From NCBI GenBank assembly GCA_034401795.1, contig CM067369.1:189802630-189866629 (forward strand): 64,000 bases of DNA, given 5' to 3'. A program made the translations under genes and the position numbers. This document shows positions 5,140 to 52,960 of the stretch, piece after piece; the first letter of the stretch is position 1, and each line of letters begins with the position of its first letter. The stretch is from Chaetoderma sp. LZ-2023a (Eukaryota; Mollusca; Caudofoveata; Chaetodermatida; Chaetodermatidae). Below the pieces are notes generated by a model that did no database searches, was not told the origin of the DNA, and saw only the letters and a program-made list of their open reading frames with translations.

Positions 5140-6735
5140 GATGCTTGAGTCAATGCTATAACTAATGCTTTCGTCAAATTTCCAGATCCAGATTTACCAG
5201 ATAGGGAAATTCTAAAATTATTAGCGCTGAGTCTTAAACTAAACGATTTCCAATTTAATTGTGAAAATTACCTTCAAATCTGTGGATGAACAATGGGTAA
5301 ACCATTCAGCCCAAATTTCACCACGATTTATGTTGCGGAGTGGGAAGAGGATGCGCTGAAGAAATCAACCACAAAGCCTCTTCTCTGCCTCAGATAATCT
5401 AGATGACATCTTCATAATTTGGCAACATTCAGAAGAAGAATTTTGAGATTTTTTTCGCATTTTAAATAACAAAGAGTCAAACATCAAACTAAAAGCTACT
5501 ATTAGATGTCACAATCTCTAAGAGTCCTCATTTTGAATCCTCTGGAAAATTAGAATATAACGTATTCTTTCAGGCAACAGGTTCAAGAACCATACACATA
5601 CCTCCACACACATTTAAAGGTCTGAGCAAATTGCAAATCATAAGATTCTTTAGAAAGTCTAGCAACAGGCAAAATCTGAATGATACATGCTGTATTCTGT
5701 TTGATGCTTGAAAATCACGCGGCTATTCTGCCCGTTTTCTTCGAAAAATTAAAGCAGATATCATAAATTCGCTTGAAAATCTAAAACTACGTAGCGGACA
5801 CGAGATTGAAACTTTTTCAAATTAAACACAACAAACAAGTCATGTGCGATGGGTCAGCTTTTAAATGCGACAAAAACGATGCAAAGTAAACAACTATATT
5901 ATAAACCACAAAGATTACTGAGTTTTCAAACAAAAAATGAATATCATATCGGGAAAAATTGGATCAATTGTGCCCTTTGCCAGAAAGAATATGTTGGTGA
6001 AAAAAATGCATTGGGAGCGCGTGCTAGAGGCCATATTTCTGATATTAAGTAGATACACCAATTCACCTTTCCAGAGTATCCATCCATCAACTGGCCTCGT
6101 ATGACGTCATAATCAGCTCACGGCGTGTATGATGATGTCACAATCATCACGTCGCAAAAGGTTCCATATAGACCATCAGCAAATCTCAAATAGTCCGACA
6201 CGTTGTATGAATTGCATGTCTTTGTAATTCTTTACTATCTAATAAACGTGTTGTTGAATATTTTGAAACTAATTTGTTTGATTGGGCGCTGTTGTTGCCT
6301 TAGGCAGCAACAGCACCCAGTCAAATTGGTTTCAAAATATTCAACAGCTCACCTGTGGGGTTTTTGGAAGTTGATAGTCAGGGTGTTCAGAGATCGATCG
6401 ATCCCAACACGAGCGAGGTGTGGGTGGAGCTTAGCTAAAGATGGGCGGGGCATAATTAAAACGGGAAAGGTCAATTGCTCAACATTTCCAAATTCCTGAT
6501 CATTCCGTTGAGCATCTTTTAGCGCAAATTCCAATTTTAGATAGTAAAGAAAAAACCAGTTTGCTTCGCAAAATACGAGAAGGCCATTGGAGTAGAACAC
6601 TCAAAACAAAAGCACCATTTGGAATGAATATAGATTTAGGAATATCACAAAATAACAAAATTATCCCATTTCAGCTCATATACAGTAGACGTAATGTTTA
6701 ATTAGCGAACACCATGAAAGCTGAATACTTACAGT
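5140..6735 (+). pseudogene. Penelope-like retroelement remnant (RT C-terminus plus GIY-YIG-like region)
   Basis: Segments in three frames follow Penelope-like order. NDFQFNCENYLQI.G (about 5245) leads to TMGKPFSPNFTTIYVAEWE (about 5290), and LDDIFIIW (about 5400) marks the RT catalytic loop. Then come SPHFESSGKLEYNVFFQ (about 5522), a RGYSARFLRKIKADI segment (about 5718), WINCALCQKEYVGE (about 5960, GIY-YIG-like) and a C-terminal piece (APFGMNIDLGISQ, about 6612). Stops and frameshifts are frequent and the first part of the RT is absent. A palindromic-core repeat (about 6097-6470) splits the endonuclease segment from the C-terminus. Family assignment is from motif recall. Confidence 0.75.
6097..6470 (-). 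repeat. Palindromic-core interspersed repeat, copy 1
   Basis: The core (6253-6345) is a long inverted repeat with arms GTTGAATATTTTGAAACTAA and TTGGTTTCAAAATATTCAAC, plus inner GCTGTTGTTGCC / GGCAGCAACAGC. One flank carries GACGTCA-like motifs (about 6105-6160) and 'tccgacacgttgta'. The other carries 'gatcgatcgatcccaacacg' and a GGGCGGGGC block. The same layout recurs at about 22.3, 22.7 and 42.9 kb. Here it sits inside the Penelope-like remnant. Confidence 0.75.
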
Positions 6736-18026: not shown

Positions 18027-19340
18027 TCACTGGTGTGTATATTTAAGCCTGTCTTCGTCTGTTCTGGTTTTCATATAGTTCGTCCAACCTCTATTTTTAG
18101 CTTTTATTAGTTTAAGAATTTCTGATGTGATAGCTGCTTTCTTTCCCTTGTTATGTGGCTTGTATCTGGGGATATGCGCTATTTCTGCTAACTTTAGTTT
18201 GTTAGAAAAAGTGGAATACATGTCTTCAACATCTTTACCTTCTAATATTTTATCCCAGTCGAGATTTAGTTCATGTTTCATTGCCCCATAGTTCCCTTTG
18301 TCGTAGTTTAATTTTTCTATTTCAGTTGTCACTGTCTCATTTGCACATTGGAGATTACATGTGATCACAACGTGGTCACTGCTTCCCAGAGGGCTATCGT
18401 ATGCAATATCTGACACAAGATTTTCATCGTTGCAGAGAATTAGATCCAGTGTATGTGGGGTGTCAGTGCCTCTAACTCTAGTGGGGTTATCGATTTTTTG
18501 AAAAAGGAAACAATCTCTTATACATTCTAGGAATCCTTCAGTACTATCTGATCCTGTCCAGGAGTCCCATTGGATGTTTGGAAAATTGAAATCTCCACAA
18601 ATGAAAATGTGTGTGTATTGCTTTGAGTTATTTGTTACTTGGCGCAGGAGGTTGTTCATTAGGTTTATATTGTTCTCGTCATCAGTGGAGCTTCTGTATA
18701 TAACACCAACTAGTAAAGTTTCATTATTTTTTAGGCGTATTTTAATAAAACAATGTTCCTTAAAATTACTTTGCACATTGATTTCATCCGAATGTAGTTC
18801 CTGTTTCACAAGTATCATAACACCTCTTCCGGTTTGTTCACAGAAGTTGTTTGGGAAAGTATCGTATCCTGCGATGGACATTTCTTCTTTAGTAGGGAGA
18901 AATCGGAAATTTTTAGGAAATATCTCTGTTATCATTATAATGTCTGGTGTTTTTTTCATGGCCAAAAGCCTTGCTTTGAATTCAGGTAATTTATTAGAGA
19001 GACTATCTGCATTGGTGTACATGCATTTCAAGTGTAGCTCAGATCTCTCATGTTCTGATAGCTGAGATTGTGTGGATTTACAATATGTTCTAGGTTCTGC
19101 TTGTTTCCTTAGAGTTTTCAATTTCTTACTTTGTAATACCTGTGTGCTTTCTTTTCTGTTTGATGGCGAGATAGCTGTTGATATTGTATCATGTATATAT
19201 TTGTTAGTATCCATTGCTTGTGGAACTGTACATTCATCAACCAAATTGTGGTATCTGTTATATAGATGTATAGGCTTGGTTATTTCTGCATTTGGTAAAT
19301 ATTTATACAGTATATTGCCTTTTTTTCTTATGCATTTATT
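18027..19340 (-). pseudogene. CR1-like ORF2, endonuclease part
   Basis: This frame is open for over 400 codons. Near 19000 it reads MYTNADSLSNKLPEF, followed by PDIIMITEIFP (the catalytic-Glu region), GVIYRSSTDD, HIFICGDFNFPNIQWD (the GDFN motif, about 18580) and SSDHVVIT (the SDH motif, about 18370). These are the ordered catalytic blocks of LINE-type APE endonucleases, which nick the target DNA. The frame stays open upstream of the first Met to about 19340. It ends in a stop at 18027, after which the RT resumes in another frame, so the polyprotein is broken between endonuclease and RT. Confidence 0.85.
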
Positions 19341-19379
19341 CCTAAAAAAGGATGAGGGATTGCATTTCTACAGGTAGTG

Positions 19380-20210: not shown

Positions 20211-20277
20211 GTTGAATATTTTGAAACTAATTTTACTGGGAGCAGTTGCAGCTAAAATTATTTTCAAAATAGTCAAC
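20211..20277. repeat. Palindromic-core repeat, core fragment
   Basis: GTTGAATATTTTGAAACTAA and ATTTTCAAAATAGTCAAC form the inverted arms, with 'gagcagttgcagct' between them. It lies about 220 bp upstream of the TATA box of the secreted-protein gene. Confidence 0.65.
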
Positions 20278-20493
20278 ACTTACAGCTTCCAAATAGTGTA
20301 TGGAAATTCAGATTCTGGTAATTCAGGGTTCAACTTCAGATCGCGTGTACCATAATACATACCATCGTAAAAGGTAACAATATTGATTGAATGATCTATA
20401 TGTTGTGCCTACACTTCCTGGTGAGGATTGGCTTCTATTGTTTCCATAGAATATGTTGGAGTATGGAATAAACAATGCTGTAAACTGTTCACC

Positions 20494-20501
20494 TATATAA
20501 G
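20494..20501 (+). promoter_or_regulatory. TATA box of the secreted cysteine-rich protein gene
   Basis: TATATAAG lies 85 bp upstream of the ATG at 20579. A start site 25-30 bp downstream would fall near 20525, giving a 5' UTR of about 55 nt. The spacing fits a TATA-driven, tissue-specific RNA polymerase II gene. Confidence 0.65.
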
Positions 20502-20578
20502 TACGAATCATCGCAGAAACTCCGCAGATTACACTTCATAATTTTAGGACAAAGATCTGGTGAAATACCCATACAAGG

Positions 20579-20738
20579 ATGATGAAGGCTGGTCTCATTC
20601 TATCAATAGCTGTGTGTCTTGTCGTACAAAGTCAGTGCTTTTGTTTCTTCGGAGGATATGGCGGATTCGGGGGATTCGGTAATCCACTTTTTGGCACTGT
20701 ACTTGGTACTGTAGCTGGCAATCGCTTTGGTGGACAGT
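20579..20738 (+). other. Exon 1: signal peptide and Gly-rich segment
   Basis: Two adjacent ATGs open the frame (20579 and 20582), and the first is used here. The exon ends ...GGACAGT followed by GTAAGT, leaving one base of a split codon. An [11 protein letters not shown] stretch follows the signal peptide. Confidence 0.85.
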
Positions 20739-20898
20739 GTAAGTATACGTATATGTACGGCATACTTGACAAGCTGAGTGCGTGTGTGCATACACTAGCG
20801 CACGTGTCTGTCTGTGTGTATGCGTGTGCGTGCGTGTGTGCGTGCGTGTGTGCGCGCGTGTATGCGCGTGTGCGTGCGTACGCGTACATGTGTGTGTG

Positions 20899-20962
<64 letters not shown>

Positions 20963-23216
20963 TGTGTGTGTGTGTACTTGCGGCCGCATGTGTGTACGTG
21001 TGCGTGCACGTTGCTATATATGTGTGTGTGTCTCTTGGCCGCGTTTGCACATATGTGCGTGCGTACGCTTTTGACTTTTCATGTTCAAAGGATTAATTTA
21101 TGCACTGAACGGAGCTCATCTACCACTCAAGTATATGACGTCATTATCAATTACATCACCGGTGAGCTGACGTCACAGTCATTATGACGCAAAACTCCTT
21201 AATGAACATTTCAAAGTGCGTCAGCAAGATACGAATTGAATGTCTTTAATGGATTTACAATTTAATAAACATTCTGTTGAGTATGTTGAAACTAATTTGA
21301 CTGGGGGTCCCTGACTGTTCAGTGGCAACTATTAACTATCCCCTTGAACAGTCGCTTAGAGCATATCCTTGAGATGAAATCTTAAAGTTAATTGATATCA
21401 TTAATCTGCTCGTATACCACCACACCAGTGGTTCCTAAGATGTGTTCTTGTTTTTGCAGTTGTCCTTCAATGCCCTGTAAATACCTTCTGTCAGTTTGCG
21501 TGTACCACGTTTGCAGGACTAACCGGCGTGTTCCAATGCCCTCTTACCACCGGCGCAGCAGCGGGAGTAGCGGTACAAATTGGAATTTGCTGTCCAGCCG
21601 TAGCCGCGGCCGGCGCGGTTGCAGTTGCTAATCAATGCGTAGCGCCGAACGTATGTCTTCCTGTATGCGCTGCGGGGAATGCACAAGTCGCGGGTGTGTG
21701 CGCGGCTGGAACGATTTGCTGTACCAACAACGTCGTAGCGCCTCTTGCTGGAGCCGCAGGTAAATTCATGGTTAACCCCGTATCTCCATTAGACAGAACT
21801 GGGAAGTTGAACCCTTTAACACTCAAGCCTGCCAAAAAACGGCTTCCACAGTGGTCTTGAGAGTACATTGAAGTACATTGGCAGACCAAGAGAAGACTAT
21901 TTTTAGAAAGTGCCAGCGTGCCGGGGTTAGGAATTATATGCAAATAATGGGACTCCGACGCAGTAGTCCCCTACACTGGTACCGTTCCCGCGCAATGTCT
22001 GATAAGAGTTTTCAGTCGTTTTACCAAATAAAATACTACTGTTGGAACAATAGACAAATTTAACATATTAACGGAATATTGGTTTGTTAAAATATTGAGT
22101 TTGATTTCAAAACTATTGATGGTAGTCGAAATTGTGGCGTTGTCAGATTATTGGCATAATCAGCTCTGTAATGCACACACGTTAACATTTTTTTTTACAA
22201 TGATGAGCTTTATTGTATTTAATAATGGGATCTGGCATTTCAACGTCAAATTGTCCACGCAGTAAGCAATGTATGAATCCAGTGTTAGCTATGTCCCGCC
22301 CATTCCTAGCTATACTCCGCCCATGCTTTGTCCGTGTTGGGATCGATCGAACCCTGAACACCCCGAATCACAATCCTGAATCTCAATTTTCAGACAACTA
22401 TAGGCCTACAGGTAAGCTGTTGAATATTTTGAAACTAATTTAACTGATAACTGTTGCTTTCTATGGAGCAACTTCGCCCGCCCTGTCATATTAGTTTCAA
22501 AATATTCAACATAATGTTTATTATACAGTAAAGAAATATAATTCGGACTATTAAACGTTTATGATGGACGTGTATATGCCATTCATGATGTGTTTGATTG
22601 TGACATCAAAATACATGTGACAAAATTGATTATGATGCCATATACTTGACTGACAGACTGGATTCCTTTATTATATTTTACTACAAGTATCTCATTACAA
22701 TGGATGGACCTTTCTATTTTAGCTATGCTTCGCTCATCTCTACGTAAGCTCCGCCCACACCTCTGGACTCCCTGACTATCAATTTCCAGAAAAATATACA
22801 GGTAAGCTGTTGCATATTTTGAAACTAATTTGACTGGGTGCTGTTGCCGCCATCATGTTTATTAAATAGTAAAGACATACAATTTGTACAACGTGCCGGA
22901 CTATTAAGAGTTAAAGACGAGCGGTATATAATAATTTATGACGTCATCCTACACGCCGCTTAGCTGATTAAGACGTCATATGACGTCATTACTCTGGCAA
23001 GGTCCATTATATAATGCCTATATTGTTTTCTTCGTGGCAGCCTGTGCGGCGCTTACTGTTTCACCTCTTCCAGCTGGTGTCGGTGCAGTCGGCGCTACAC
23101 TTGCACCTAACCGACAAGGTGTCTGCATTGTGGGAGCGCCACCTTCAGGGACCGTGTGTAACTCTTTTATCCCAACTGCAACATGTGTACCGCCAGGAGG
23201 TTGTTGCCTTAACTAG
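20579..23216 (+). CDS. Secreted Gly/Ala-rich, cysteine-modular protein (three exons, lustrin-like spacing)
   Basis: The spliced CDS is 20579-20738, 21460-21759 and 23041-23216, that is 160+300+176 = 636 nt or 211 aa plus stop. Both introns begin GTAAGT or GTAAAT, end CAG, and are phase 1. The first residues ([20 protein letters not shown]) form a classic signal peptide. A short [11 protein letters not shown] glycine stretch follows. Exon 2 encodes two modules with cysteines spaced C-x5-C-x3-C-x11-C-x16-CC and C-x5-C-x3-C-x10-C-x5-CC. Exon 3 ends with C-x8-C-x5-CC followed by LN and the stop. The spacers are rich in Ala, Gly and Val. The repeated terminal CC resembles lustrin-type cysteine-rich domains of mollusc shell-matrix and other secreted proteins, so an extracellular structural or protease-inhibitor-like role is inferred. 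No intact transposon domain is present, and splice phases, signal peptide and TATA box agree. This is the only gene in the window that looks functional. I know no named homologue. Confidence 0.85.
20820..20975. repeat. (TGCG)n/(TGTG)n microsatellite in intron 1
   Basis: Degenerate GTGTGCG repeats (20805-20895) turn into pure TGCG (20899-20963). The repeat lies wholly inside intron 1 and accounts for the long Cys-Val-Arg and His-Thr frames here. Confidence 0.9.
21135..21312 (-). repeat. Palindromic-core repeat, copy 3 (half element, intron 1)
   Basis: A GACGTCA-rich flank ('tgacgtcattatcaattaca', 'gctgacgtcacagtcattat') is followed by 'tttaataaacattctgttga' and 'tgaaactaatttgactgggg'. Only one arm of the core is present. 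Confidence 0.65.
21460..21759 (+). other. Exon 2: two cysteine modules
   Basis: Preceded by a polypyrimidine tract and CAG (tcttgtttttgcag), followed by GTAAAT. Exactly 300 nt with no stop in the phase set by exon 1. It encodes ICC and ICC module ends (GICCPA and TICCTN). Confidence 0.85.
21808..21935 (+). repeat. One-armed relative of the 4.4-kb foldback element (intron 2)
   Basis: 'gttgaaccctttaacactca', 'cggcttccacagtggtct' and 'gaccaagagaagactatttt' match the left arm of 4391-4510. The second arm is absent. Confidence 0.65.
22290..22640 (+). repeat. Palindromic-core repeat, copy 4 (full, intron 2)
   Basis: The left flank has 'gtccgtgttgggatcgatcg'. The core is 22419-22510 (GTTGAATATTTTGAAACTAA / TTAGTTTCAAAATATTCAAC). 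The right flank has 'tttattatacagtaaagaaa', 'ggactattaa' and 'gattgtgacatca'. A CAGGTAAG splice-donor-like site lies directly before the core (22408-22416). Confidence 0.75.
22715..22990 (+). repeat. Palindromic-core repeat, copy 5 (one core arm, intron 2)
   Basis: Shares 'gtaagctccgcccacacctc', 'caatttccagaaaaatatac', CAGGTAAG and 'tattttgaaactaatttgac'. It then jumps to the right flank ('tttattaaatagtaaagaca', 'gtgccggactattaa', 'tgacgtcatatgacgtcatt'). It ends about 50 bp before exon 3. Confidence 0.7.
23041..23216 (+). other. Exon 3: last cysteine module and stop
   Basis: Follows 'ttgttttcttcgtggcag'. The phase-1 join makes an Ala codon, and the frame stays open to TAG at 23214-23216. 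The end reads [12 protein letters not shown]. No canonical AATAAA is seen before the LINE array begins, so the 3' UTR end is not fixed. Confidence 0.85.
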
Positions 23217-23357
23217 GCTAACGGTTCAAACTGTGTGTAATTGTTTTCGTATATAAAGTGCTTATTATTGTGATTATTACTAAATGTTACGTGAAACCCA
23301 CTGACTTTGCTAGAATGGCTGCTGCAGCAGCACTACCCATTGTATTTGCTAGAATGG

Positions 23358-32680: not shown

Positions 32681-35600
32681 CGTAAAATGCACAAAGCAAA
32701 AGTATACAAACTATGACTACATTGATGGCGCTCTGGGTTCACATTTTAAATTTACTTCACTGTAAGTTTTTGTAAATTACCCTGGAACAAATACACCTAC
32801 AGAAACATTTACAACAGGATGTTAACTGTATATGTGTAAGATGTCATACTCTGTTAACCTAATGAACTCGAAAGTCGGATCAGCTCCAGAATATTGACAC
32901 AATGCTCAATTGATATTTAAATATACCGATTCCCAAGGTTACGTTATTCGTCAAAATTATCATCTCCTAAGACATTAAAATTTTAAAATTAACTCAATTA
33001 AATAAAATAAAATACTATATATCAATATACAACAAGCAGCGAGTGTGCTAGCTTATACAAATTCTGCTTCTGCTATTTTTTAGATATCCATGTTAAATTG
33101 ATACTAGGCCAGTTTTGCACCATATATCTTTAAATCTACTTTCTTTTCCATGTTCCACTAGCCTGTAAAATTCGCAATGAATGCAGTTTATCAACAATTA
33201 TCGAAATATAGCTTGTATTGCTCTTTGGTGGTTGTTTCCTGTTTTATTTCTGGCCTAACACCGATGCTTCCAAATGGCCCACACTCCTACAGATAACAGA
33301 GTTACAAACAACTCTTTCTCCTTGCTATTAATGATTCGTCCGATAGTTGAGCAATCTTTGAACATAATTGTTTCAGCCATTAATTTCACATATTTGATTC
33401 CAAATTTAGCAAGGAGCATATTGATATATACCCAAAAGCCTGTAGCTATACAACACTGTGTAAACAGATGGTCTATTGTTTCCTCCTCGGTATTACATAA
33501 TAAACACCGGTCTGTACTTGTTATTTTGCACATATGTCAGATGGCCGACCCATAGCCTTTGATGGAGTAATCGCCATGCCAGGTCCCGTGCGTTTGCTAG
33601 TAAACAAGGTAGATGTATTCTTTTCCACGCATATCTCCAGTTCTTTGGCGTGCATCCTAAAGTGTTCCAATGCCTTACTGCAACAGGAGTCTGGCTCCGA
33701 CTTTGCATTAGCATTCCATACCAGGCTCTAGATGCCATGTTGTATTTTATATGCTCTGACTTAAATACTAATGTTGGTTGCAACAAATCTCTGTTGGCAC
33801 GTGCTTTCGGCAATTTGAACCATTCACCAGGTATTGCATTCTTTATTCTAAGAAATAAGCGTTGGGCATCAATATGCCTCATTGATGTTGCTCTTGCTAC
33901 ATCCTGCATCGCAATCCATTTGTGAGATTTTGGATTAACTAAATCACGTAAATATTGAATGCCATTTTTGGCCATAGAGGGCAAATATAATACAGCATCA
34001 TTATCACGAATCAACTCGTTGCCCCAAAGACGTTGCTCTAAGGCATCTTCCCAACAACTGGGTTGTGGCATTGATCGTGTAAATATCTTTAAAGCTTCGA
34101 GCTGTTCTTTATATACATGTGGTATCTTCTGATGGTTAGGTGGCAGTTTATTGCACAAAAATAAACATTCTACTGGAAATGGATCTACGTACCTTTATAG
34201 AAGTGTCCTTGCAACAGTTGACCAAGATGAGTTTGAAGTGAGTAACTTATTCAAGAATTTCAGTTTTAGCGAAGCACACTTTGCTAAAACATTAACCAAA
34301 TCCAGACCTCCATCATGCTTTTCATTGGTGAGGATTGACTGCGATACTAAATGGGCTTTGTCCTCCCATAAGAAGGACAAAAGTAACGTGTTGATCTTTG
34401 ACTCTACTGATTTGGGCATATGAACTACAGAAGCGGTATACCACAGTCCGGATAAAATTAAATTATTAAGGACAAATGTCCTGCCACATACAGTTAGGCG
34501 AAGTCGTTTCCAATTTACTAATGCACACTTTAGCTTGGATAGCCTTTCTTCCCAGTTTATTATTACATCCTGTTCTCTACTAAAGTAAATACCCAAAATC
34601 TTTATGACATGATCTGACCAGTTAATATCCATAACATTGTCAGCTCTGTCCTTCCAAGCGCCCAAAAATAATCCCTTAGATTTGTCTCTATTGACTTTAA
34701 TCCCTGATGCCTTTTGAAAATCTGATAATACTCCATTTAAAATTCTAAAATCTGAATTTTCTCCTGCAAACACCGTCGTATCATCTGCATATTGAGACAC
34801 CTTTAGTGGCCTTTCTACGCCACGTATACATATTCCTTGAAAATCATTACGTTGCCTCAATGTGGCCCCCAACGATTCCATAGCTATGACGAATAAAAGC
34901 GGTGAAAATGAGTAACCCTGTCTGAAATCTGGTTCCAACACTACAGGTTCAGATAGATGATTATCTACTAAATAGCAATGTGTTATATCAGTATATAAAA
35001 TATTGACCCATTTAGTAAATCTGGAACCAAAGCCAATATGGTCTAAAGACTTAAACAAGAAATCCCATTCAAGTCTGTCAAACGCCTTCTCGTTGTCAAG
35101 TGCTATTATTGCTGCTGGGATGCAATCCTGTTCAACTAATTGAATAAGGTCTCGTATAAGCAATGTGTTGTTTAATATCGTTCTTCCTGGTACAGAGCAC
35201 GTTTGATCATCATCAATTACTTCGCCTAGGACTGCGCCAAGTTTTAATGTTAGTGCCCAAGTAATAATCTTATAGTCTACACAGAGTAGAGAGATTGGTC
35301 TATAATTCTGTATTTTATTTCTGTCACCCCTCTTGTATATAAGCCGAACATATGCTTGGGCCATCGATGGAGGGATGCTTAAAAATGCTAGCTGCTATTT
35401 CTTCTAATATTGGACCAAATATGTGCCAGAATGTTTGATAAAATTCGACTGGAAGTCCGTCGCAACCAAGAGACTTTTCTAACTTCATACCTTTGAGGGA
35501 TTTTGTCAAATCATCAATTGTTAGTGAGTGGTCACAACTTTCGCGACATGCATCTGGAAGTCTTTGCGTTATATTAGCTAAAATATCTCTAGTTGCAGCT

Positions 35601-36250: not shown

Positions 36251-37910
36251 TACACCTGTGCAAAAGTTAAGCACCACCCTATTTTTACGCACATGCGAGG
36301 GTATATTCATGTGCTATGAAGAAAGCAATAGCATAAACATTTATGTACCCATCCATCTTAGTGCAAGAGGTAATAATGCAACTAGAGGAATGCTGATTAT
36401 GATGGTGGGGAAACACTGTATGTTTTTGTTTGAACTTGAAAACGAGGCCTGAATATGGTTACGTTGACACAACTGACAACTATTGCCTTACAGTTGACAC
36501 ACGTGGCTAGATTGTCATTAATGGTGTCTGAAAACGAAGTTTAACATCTGTGCACGAGTTTGAGACTGTCATTATTAATACCGGGTATATCCACCTTGTG
36601 CCTGGATGACGGCCTGGACACGACCTCTCATGCTGGTCACCAACCGACTGATACGCCATTGTGGTATTCGTTGCCATTCAAGATGGAGTGCGTCTGTTAA
36701 TTCCTGTAGGTTCTGCACAGGAGGATCCCTCCTTCTCACCATGTTTCCCAGAATGTCCCAGATATGCTCAATAGGGTTCATGTCAGGGCTCCTTGCTGGC
36801 CATGGTAGGGTTTCGATGGCATTCTGGCGGAGGTATTCATGCACAGCTCTAGCACGATGTGGTCGGGCGTTGTCATCCATGAATATAGGGTGGGTTCCAG
36901 GTGCATGATTTACAAAATGAGGGACCACAACTCTATCCAGTATGGAATCTTGATATCTTTGTCCATTTAGTGTTCCAGGTACAGTCAACAAATCCAGCTT
37001 ACAATCAAATGAGATGCACCCCCATATCATAACGGAACCTCCACCAAATGGAACTTCTTCCATGATGTTACGTTGGTCGTACGCCGTGCGTCTGGACCTC
37101 CATACACGAGTTCGACCATCTGTGGCATGAAGCAGGAACCGACTTTCATCGGACCAGTGTACCCGTCTCCAGGATCTCATGTTCCAGTGTCTTCTTTCGT
37201 TGCACCACCTCAGACGCTCCTCTTTGTGGTGTGCAGTGAGGAGAGGACGTCTGACAGGTCTCCTAGCTTTCATGCCAGCAGCATACAGTCTCCTTTTGAC
37301 GGTAGACATTGACACTCTATTGCGCGTTTCCCATTGCTGGCTGAGCACTCTGCTGTTGGTGAATGGAGACCTCCTAACAAGGCGTACTAGGGCTCGATCA
37401 TCACGGGCAGTAGTCTTCTTCGGTCTTCCAGATCTAGGCCTGTCCTTCACCTCGTTAGTTTGCCCATGTTTTGCAATCAAACGACTGATTACAGTATGGT
37501 TAATGTTCAGCTGTCTGCCAATCTCTCTGCATGACATACCAGTGGTATGCATGCCTATGATTTGCCATTTCACACAATCACTTAACCTTCGTCTTGCCAT
37601 AGCGGTTCATAATCAAGAGCTAATTCTCTCTGTACAAATAAACCACGGTCATGAACACAAAATTCCTAATCTTGTCGCCTAAATCTGTATGTAATGTTCT
37701 ACACCTCAAACTGGACTTTTACATAACTGAACACGTGTGCTGTTTCCCGCCACGCACGGACATCAAGCGGCGTGAAGTCATGCATGCATGTGCATTTCGT
37801 ACTTGGAATTATGTCATCTAACGCGGGTACAAAAAGTATGGCAGCCTAGTTGTACCATCATGTTTCTACGTTCTATTGTTTTGCTGGTGCTTAACTTTTG
37901 CACAGGTGTA
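36251..37910 (-). mobile_element. Tc1-like DNA transposon, copy 1 (complete, inserted in LINE copy C)
   Basis: A 1660-bp element with identical terminal inverted repeats of about 26 bp starting TACACCTGTGCAAAAG, flanked by TA on both sides (36249-36250 and 37911-37912). Removing it with one TA joins the LINE endonuclease frame exactly (RLDRIY to VERSL). It contains one intact transposase. It is nearly identical to the copy at 51305-52960, so the family was recently active. Confidence 0.95.
36575..37600 (-). CDS. Tc1-like transposase, intact (341 aa)
   Basis: It cuts and pastes the element by binding its terminal repeats and cleaving DNA with a DDE active site in the nucleus. The N-terminus carries a paired-like helix-turn-helix (MARRRLSDCVKWQIIGMH and CREIGRQLNINHTVISRLI, residues ~1-45), then a GRPKKT AT-hook-like linker (~60) and a second helix-turn-helix (~65-115). 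Catalytic residues sit in VHWSDESRF (~150), IFMDDNARPH (~240) and SPDMNPIEHIWDIL (~276), with 34 residues between the second Asp and the Glu, so DD34E. The length is normal for Tc1 transposases. ATG at 37600 and stop at 36575 lie well inside the element. It looks able to encode an active enzyme, although expression is not shown. Confidence 0.93.
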   Translation of the reverse strand: MARRRLSDCVKWQIIGMHTTGMSCREIGRQLNINHTVISRLIAKHGQTNEVKDRPRSGRPKKTTARDDRALVRLVRRSPFTNSRVLSQQWETRNRVSMSTVKRRLYAAGMKARRPVRRPLLTAHHKEERLRWCNERRHWNMRSWRRVHWSDESRFLLHATDGRTRVWRSRRTAYDQRNIMEEVPFGGGSVMIWGCISFDCKLDLLTVPGTLNGQRYQDSILDRVVVPHFVNHAPGTHPIFMDDNARPHRARAVHEYLRQNAIETLPWPARSPDMNPIEHIWDILGNMVRRRDPPVQNLQELTDALHLEWQRIPQWRISRLVTSMRGRVQAVIQAQGGYTRY

Positions 37911-42919: not shown

Positions 42920-43258
42920 AATGGCCCTTTCCGGTTTTAGCTATGCCCCGCCCATCTCTAGCTAAGCTCCACCCATACCTCGCTCGTGCTGGGATCTATT
43001 GATCTCTGAACACTCTGCCTATCAATTTCCAAAAAACTACACAGGTAAGCTGTTAAATATTTTGAAACTAATTTGGCTGGGTGCGGTTGATACCAAAGGC
43101 AGGAATAGCGCGCAGTCATATTAGTTTCAAAATGTTCAACAGCATGTTTATTAAATAGGAAAGAATTGCAAAGCCATACAATTCATACGTGTCGGACTAT
43201 AGGAGATTTGATGACGGTCTATATGGAACCCTTTGTGATGCAATGATTGTGACGTTGT
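42920..43258 (+). repeat. Palindromic-core repeat, copy 6 (full)
   Basis: The left flank has 'agctatgccccgcccatctc', 'ctcgctcgtgctgggatc', 'caatttccaaaaaactacac' and CAGGTAAG. The core is 43052-43140. The right flank has 'tttattaaataggaaagaat', 'acgtgtcggactata' and 'gattgtgacgtt'. It abuts the ~1.45-kb LTR-like repeat. Confidence 0.75.
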
Positions 43259-51309: not shown

Positions 51310-52960
51310 CTGTGCAAAAGTTAAGCACCAGCAAAAACAATAGAACGTAGAAACATGATGGTACAACTAGGCTGCCATACCATTTGTCCCCGCGTTAGCT
51401 GACATAATTCCAAGTACGAAATGCACATGCATGCATGACTTCACGCCGCTTGATGTCCGTGCGTGGCGGGAAACAGCACACGTGTTCAGTTATGTAAAAG
51501 TCCAGTTTGAGGTGTAGGACATTACATACAGATTTAGGCGACAAGATTAGGAATTTTGTGTTCATGACCGTGGTTTATTTGTACAGAGAGAATTAGCTTT
51601 TGATTGTGAACCGCTATGGCAAGACGAAGGTTAAGTGATCGTGTGAAATGGCAAATCATAGGCATGCATACCACTGGTATGTCATGCAGAGAGATTGGCA
51701 AACAGCTGAACATTAACCATACTGTAATCAGTCGTTTGATTGCAAAACATGGGCAAACTAACGAGGTGAACGACAGGCCTAGATCTGGAAGACCGAAGAA
51801 GACTACTGCCCGTGATGATCGAGCCCTACTACGCCTTGTTAGGAGATCTCCATTCACCAACAGCAGAGTGCTCAGCCAGCAATGGGAAACGCGCAATAGT
51901 GTCAATGTCTACCGTCAAAAGGCGACTGTATGCTGCTGGCATGAAAGCTAGGAGACCTGTCAGACGTCCTCTCCTTACTGCACACCACAAAGAGGAGCGT
52001 CTGAGGTGCAACGAAAGAAGACACTGGAACATGAGATCCTGGAGACGGGTACACTGGTCCGATGAAAGTCGGTTCCTGCTTCATGCCACAGATGGTCGAA
52101 CTCGTGTATGGAGGTCCAGACGCACGGCGTACGACCAACGTAACATCATGGAAGAAGTTCCATTTGGTGGAGGTTCCGTTATGATATGGGGGTGCATCTC
52201 ATTTGATTGTAAGCTGGATCTGTTGACTGTACCTGGAACACTAAATGGACAAAGATATAAAGATTCCATACTGGATAGAGTTGTGGTCCCTCATTTTGTA
52301 AATCATGCACCTGGAACCCACCCTATATTCATGGATGACAACGCCCGACCACATCGTGCTAGAGCTGTGCATGAATACCTCCGCCAGAATGCCATCGAAA
52401 CCCTACCATGGCCAGCAAGGAGCCCTGACATGAACCCTATTGAGCATATCTGGGACATTCTGGGAAACATGGTGAGGAGGAGGGATCCTCCTGTGCAGAA
52501 CCTACAGGAATTAACAGATGCACTCCATCTTGAATGGCAACGAATACCACAATGGCGTATCAGTCGGGTGGTGACCAGCATGAGACGTCGTGTCCAGGCC
52601 GTCCTCCAGGCACAAGGTGGATATACCCGGTATTAATAATGACAGTCTCAAACTCGTGCACAGATGTTAAACTTCGTTTTCAGACACCATTAATGACAAT
52701 CTAGCCACGTGTGTCAACTGTAAGGCAATAGTTGTCAGTTGTGTCAACGTAACCATATTCAGGCCTCGTTTTCAAGTTCAAACAAAAACATACAGTGTTT
52801 CCCCACCATCATAATCAGCATTCCTCTAGTTGCATTATTACCTCTTGCACTAAGATGGATGGGTACATAAATGTTTATGCTATTGCTTTCTTCATAGCAC
52901 ATGAATATACCCTCGCATGTGCGTAAAAATAGGGTGGTGCTTAACTTTTGCACAGGTGTA
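51305..52960 (+). mobile_element. Tc1-like DNA transposon, copy 2 (defective)
   Basis: 1656 bp, same terminal repeats (TACACCTGTGCAAAAG...) and TA flanks. Nearly identical to copy 1 but in opposite orientation. The 4-bp length difference is explained by a 2-bp deletion and a 3-bp deletion in the transposase and a 1-bp gain in the 5' flank. Confidence 0.95.
51616..52636 (+). pseudogene. Tc1-like transposase, frameshifted
   Basis: The first 111 codons (51616-51951) follow copy 1 up to ETRN, where AG is missing (about 51898) and the frame ends early. The rest (HTH end, DDE domain) is open in another frame to 52636. All catalytic motifs (VHWSDESRF, IFMDDNARPH, SPDMNPIEHIWDIL) are unchanged. One Trp codon is missing (EERLRCNERR against EERLRWCNERR). 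Only a few amino acids differ otherwise, so the break is recent. Confidence 0.93.

Follow-up and report, generated by a model that had tools for sequence, protein, structure and literature searches.

A three-exon gene for a nearly charge-free, cysteine-rich and presumably secreted protein very probably exists in the 64,000-nucleotide stretch of Chaetoderma sp. DNA analysed here (hereafter the window), and a paralogue of the same architecture lies 34 kb upstream on chromosome 11 (C11). The kind of gene is ordinary, that of an orphan secreted cysteine-rich mollusc protein, since lineage-specific proteins of this sort are common in molluscs; what stands out is the near-absence of charge in the products of both copies. 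This property and the tandem copy go beyond the preliminary description of the locus. There are thus two open-frame genes whose product has a most unusual composition, and existing whole-body RNA reads (SRR26949954, PMC10810820) could test them. Judging from the gene, the composition and the conservation of the cysteines, the product could well be a disulfide-linked, hydrophobic structural secretion, a covering material of the cuticle, the sclerite coat or a gland secretion, a reading to which we give about an even chance.

The host is a worm-shaped mollusc of the deep sea that bears sclerites and has no shell. Chaetoderma sp. is a caudofoveate sampled at a South China Sea methane seep, and the genome report describes caudofoveates as lacking a foot (PMC10810820), so that the foot RNA-seq proposed in the preliminary description is inapplicable. 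In two other caudofoveates, an aragonite sclerite cover of 100 to 150 micrometre surrounds the body, as described in a study in whose main text the word 'protein' was not found (PMC11169368).

Gene structure and the second copy

When rebuilt from the window, the three exons, all on the forward strand, join as 160 + 300 + 176 bases into 636 nt that encode 211 aa and a stop codon. Exon 1 (20579-20738) contains the start codon, the signal-like peptide (approximately residues 1-20) and an FGG-rich segment, exon 2 (21460-21759) encodes cysteine groups 1 and 2, with six cysteines each and a CC end, and exon 3 (23041-23216) encodes group 3, likewise of six cysteines and ending in CC, followed by the stop codon. 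Both intron 1 (20739-21459), inside which there is a GTGC microsatellite (about 20826-20972), and intron 2 (21760-23040), which contains copies of a repeated inverted element, are phase 1 and GT-AG, with 5' ends GTAAGT and GTAAAT, respectively, and GCAG at both 3' ends. All coordinates of the complete three-exon gene claimed in the preliminary description proved exact, together with its GT-AG sites, matching phases and 211 codons plus stop. The TATA box that it placed 85 bp before the start was also found (TATATAA, 20494-20500, forward strand, 85 bp 5' of the ATG); the sequence CCTATATAAGTA is kept in the paralogue, and the TATA-like box is changed in a decayed upstream copy. Past the stop codon, sequence and alignment point to a candidate variant poly(A) signal, TATAAA (23252-23257, forward strand), with which AATAAA is aligned in the paralogue. 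Readthrough of intron 2 was considered as an alternative end and rejected: the frame of the window copy continues as far as 21860 without a stop, and splicing is preferred because the readthrough part shows no likeness to the paralogue. A bacterial promoter scan of positions 20400-20600, which is of a type not meaningful for an animal gene, returned nothing.

In the paralogue the exon lengths (160/300/176), exon boundaries and frame are identical to those of the window copy, and alignment of the two loci showed the TATA box and all splice boundaries to be identical as well. Nucleotide identity is 84% for exon 1 (160/160 bases aligned), 95% for exon 2 (300/300 bases aligned) and 95% across bases 3-176 of exon 3, and the joined exons of the paralogue encode 211 aa with 85% protein identity to the window product. 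Not a single gap run was detected in the 636 coding bases, versus five in intron 1 and twelve in intron 2 (total 17), the latter intron being 1281 nt long in the window copy and 459 nt in the paralogue. To judge from its sequence, the gene model is beyond chance, given a second locus with the same architecture and gapless exons. The possibility that the paralogue is an unpurged second haplotype was ruled out, since the divergence is far above the heterozygosity of 1.39% given for this genome (PMC10810820) and the two copies are located 34 kb apart on one chromosome.

Mismatches per site amount to 0.163 in exon 1, 0.053 in exon 2 and 0.051 in exon 3, and to 0.165 in intron 1 and 0.274 in intron 2. 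The exon-intron contrast is uneven, because exon 1 is as diverged as intron 1 (0.163 vs 0.165) and intron 1, in its 3' part, shows a mismatch of only 0.087 (32/366 aligned bases), equal to the dS of exons 2-3 (0.08-0.09). Gene conversion or uneven divergence may be behind part of this contrast, and the firmer evidence for a gene lies in a reading frame without breaks and in the retention of the splice sites rather than in the contrast itself. The dN/dS between the two copies was 0.66 by the NG86 method (exon 1, 0.87; exon 2, 0.46; exon 3, 0.49) and 0.54 by LWL85.

A cysteine-rich product almost without charge

Following the first residues MMKAG, the product has an N-terminal hydrophobic core whose maximum 11-residue Kyte-Doolittle mean is 3.32 in the window copy and 3.07 in the paralogue, which is signal-like and suggests a signal peptide of about 20 residues, with cleavage assumed after residue 20. 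In the window copy a 14-residue stretch follows the signal-like part, and the Gly/Phe segment comprises 11 residues. The mature part contains three six-cysteine groups, 18 residues in all, each group with the order C-C-C-C-CC and ending in CC, spaced as C-x5-C-x3-C-x11-C-x16-CC in group 1, C-x5-C-x3-C-x10-C-x5-CC in group 2 and C-x26-C-x10-C-x8-C-x5-CC in group 3. All 18 of these module cysteines are kept in the paralogue, while the cysteine residues C13, C20 and C22 are not; in simulations of neutral change the chance of no loss among the module cysteines was P 0.05-0.08, which is only suggestive. Local alignments among the three groups, calculated for signs of a common origin, scored below the shuffle mean (p 0.56, 0.89 and 0.81), so the groups appear alike in cysteine order only, and that they are repeats of one module is unproven. 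AlphaFold applied to the exon-2 part alone, without relatives, gave a mean pLDDT of 46.2, which is uninformative.

The 191-aa mature part consists of 17.8% A, 15.7% G, 12.6% V and 9.9% C, with a GRAVY of 0.97, and in both copies it is entirely devoid of D, E, H, K, M and W and has two Arg. Its D+E+K+R+H count is therefore 2, as compared with a minimum of 9 and a mean of 40 across 2395 stretches obtained by translating the window in six frames with stops dropped. The mature parts of the two copies differ at 22 places, none of which involves D, E, K or H; simulated neutral changes predict 3.2-3.6 gains of these residues and a probability of none of 0.015-0.024 (four settings). Arg is not excluded in the same way, as two of the 22 differences gain and two lose it.

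In line with the preliminary description, the product appears to be a cysteine-module protein that carries a signal, and no known domain was recognised in it; its N-terminus is hydrophobic, its frame is open and no profile matched. The profile HMM search proposed in that description for lustrin and WAP-type domains returned no Pfam family for the product (211 aa) up to E 10, a range in which the filters of HMMER discard most matches beyond about 0.1; NCBIfam and PHROGs likewise gave no family each. A single match was obtained among PDB sequences, at chance level (E 0.82). In viral contigs, 113 stretches fitted a pattern and none was confirmed, and a literature search for three GGF/GGY strings found no occurrence.

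Apparently decayed relatives and the surrounding DNA

A tblastn search with the 211-aa product across 213 kb surrounding the window identified further stretches similar to exon 1 (C11:189733016), exon 2 (C11:189741253 and C11:189761499) and exon 3 (C11:189764804). These upstream pieces look decayed: the exon-2-like ones are without an acceptor at the aligned place and show frame changes, and the exon-3-like one has its beginning replaced by a GGT microsatellite. That they could instead belong to a diverged gene with different exon ends is, from their sequence, not favoured over decay. The pieces lie within or beside recent tandem duplications, seen as matches of 2 to 10 kb with 96-99% identity; these duplications span C11:189735326-189764828 beside the gene cluster and carry a decayed exon-2 piece twice.

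Genome-wide protein searches yielded at least six matches for the window copy, at least eight for the paralogue and at least one for the decayed exon 3, counts that are lower bounds given that the window-copy query missed pieces found by the local search. Among the matches found, one is outside the cluster, on C16 (E 0.6), and it has stops inside. The genome searched comprises 2753 contigs and 2,438,752,110 bases and the published assembly is given as 5,340 sequences and 2.45 Gb (PMC10810820), so the smallest contigs may be absent from the former. The published genome annotation is stated to contain 23,675 genes.

The statement that the window is otherwise repeats was only broadly right. When Pfam was run on 10 of the 85 listed window ORFs besides the gene, three were clear transposon proteins and a fourth had a zinc knuckle just under the curated cut-off; the remaining six had no Pfam match (E 0.001), so that the rest of the window need not consist of repeats throughout. 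A Tc1-like transposase is encoded at 36575-37606 (reverse strand) by an uninterrupted 343-aa frame that has Pfam matches to DDE_3 and a Tc3-type HTH, and a second one, whose likeness was judged by eye, occupies two overlapping frames at 51610-52636 (forward strand). LINE-type endonuclease and reverse transcriptase frames (PF14529, PF00078) are located at 18027-19367 and 34195-35394, both on the reverse strand. Besides these, an inverted-repeat element with ends like GTTGAATATTTTGAAACTAATTT was found at 20211-20277, 22419-22510, 6253-6345 and 43052-43140; ends of this type match the window 12 times at up to three mismatches, versus a mean of 0.00 expected (100 shuffles). Copies or single ends of this element, which is probably a small, MITE-like DNA transposon, are present 5' of the gene and in both of its introns.

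Possible roles of the product

As a structural secretion, the protein would be exported via the secretory route, and its cysteines would pair inside each group to give units that are compact, hydrophobic and without charge. Packing of these units against one another may be made possible by the Gly/Phe segment and the Ala/Val/Gly spacers, and disulfides might then fix the packed units, yielding an extracellular material that is insoluble or keeps water out. Such a material would most likely belong to the cuticle, to the organic sclerite coat or to the secretion of a gland. Typical mineral-binding shell proteins are acidic, so the near charge-free mature part argues against a protein of that type and for a hydrophobic matrix or coat.

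Hydrophobic cysteine-rich secreted proteins are also used in defence, venom and egg coats. The signal-like N-terminus and the many cysteines would suit a defence or gland protein whose disulfide-rich modules have an antimicrobial, inhibitory or toxin-like action, and so would the tandem duplication and the fast-changing exon 1. However, typical antimicrobial peptides are cationic, unlike a mature part whose sole charged residues are two Arg and which lacks Lys and His, and neither the empty Pfam result nor the lone chance-level PDB match (E 0.82) points in this direction, which makes such a role unlikely. A reproductive role, as an egg-envelope, seminal or other secretion protein forming a disulfide-linked coat, would agree with the composition, which fits any insoluble extracellular coat, and with the presence of two copies that are most different in exon 1, but nothing indicates reproduction specifically, and we consider this quite improbable.

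Loss of expression would leave the window copy a recently silenced former gene, as might be supposed from the decayed pieces of the same family upstream, from its having just a variant poly(A) hexamer and from the moderate dN/dS of 0.66. Nevertheless, neither copy has acquired a stop, frameshift or splice-site change and the TATA box is retained, which renders silencing very unlikely. The preliminary description had proposed a divergent lustrin or WAP-type cysteine-rich shell protein, and the CC-ending groups of six cysteines in a mollusc host are what such a protein might show; the lack of a Pfam match at E up to 10 and a cysteine spacing unlike that of the lustrin-type domains of the same genome speak against it, and leave this proposal with very little probability.

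Comparison with known protein families

CC-ending cysteine modules are shared by the window product and the lustrin family (PF14625), which is also present in this mollusc: two places on C13 scored above the cut-off of the Lustrin_cystein profile (PF14625). These lustrin-type domains, at C13:116880864 and C13:116882040, are about 1.2 kb apart in what is a shell-less mollusc, and are identical over 31 residues, so that they provide in effect one comparison. The closeness to lustrin-type spacing suggested in the preliminary description was not borne out, since the domains of the same genome read C-x8-C-x5-C-x10-CC and the window groups differ from this. In full, the lustrin domains have the form C-x8-CPSGYEC-x10-CC with several charged residues, whereas the window product is without this motif and has other spacing. 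With the WAP four-disulfide core, window groups 2 and 3 share a C-x5-CC stretch. The WAP core has eight cysteines, with CC followed by C-x3-C-x3-C; in contrast, after CC, window groups 1 and 2 have 14 and 13 cysteine-free residues, respectively, and group 3 is at the chain end.

Abductin, shematrin and other Gly-rich mollusc structural proteins contain GGF/GGY-type repeats that resemble the 11-residue segment of the window product. Abductin and shematrin have long Gly-rich repeat domains, whereas the Gly/Phe stretch of the window product takes up 11 of 191 residues in a cysteine-rich chain, a distinction drawn from general features of these families.

Fungal hydrophobins have eight cysteines in the order C-CC-C-C-CC-C. 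The window product differs in having 18 cysteines arranged as three C-C-C-C-CC groups, no Pfam match and an animal host. As an analogy only, both are small, secreted, hydrophobic and cysteine-rich and have CC doublets, and assembly at a surface is possible for the window product. It is conceivable, if rather improbable, that the two genes represent an aplacophoran-specific family of nearly charge-free, disulfide-linked, hydrophobin-like building proteins forming a water-excluding organic layer that covers the cuticle or surrounds the sclerites of aragonite, which, if true, would represent an aculiferan route to armour without lustrin-type shell proteins.
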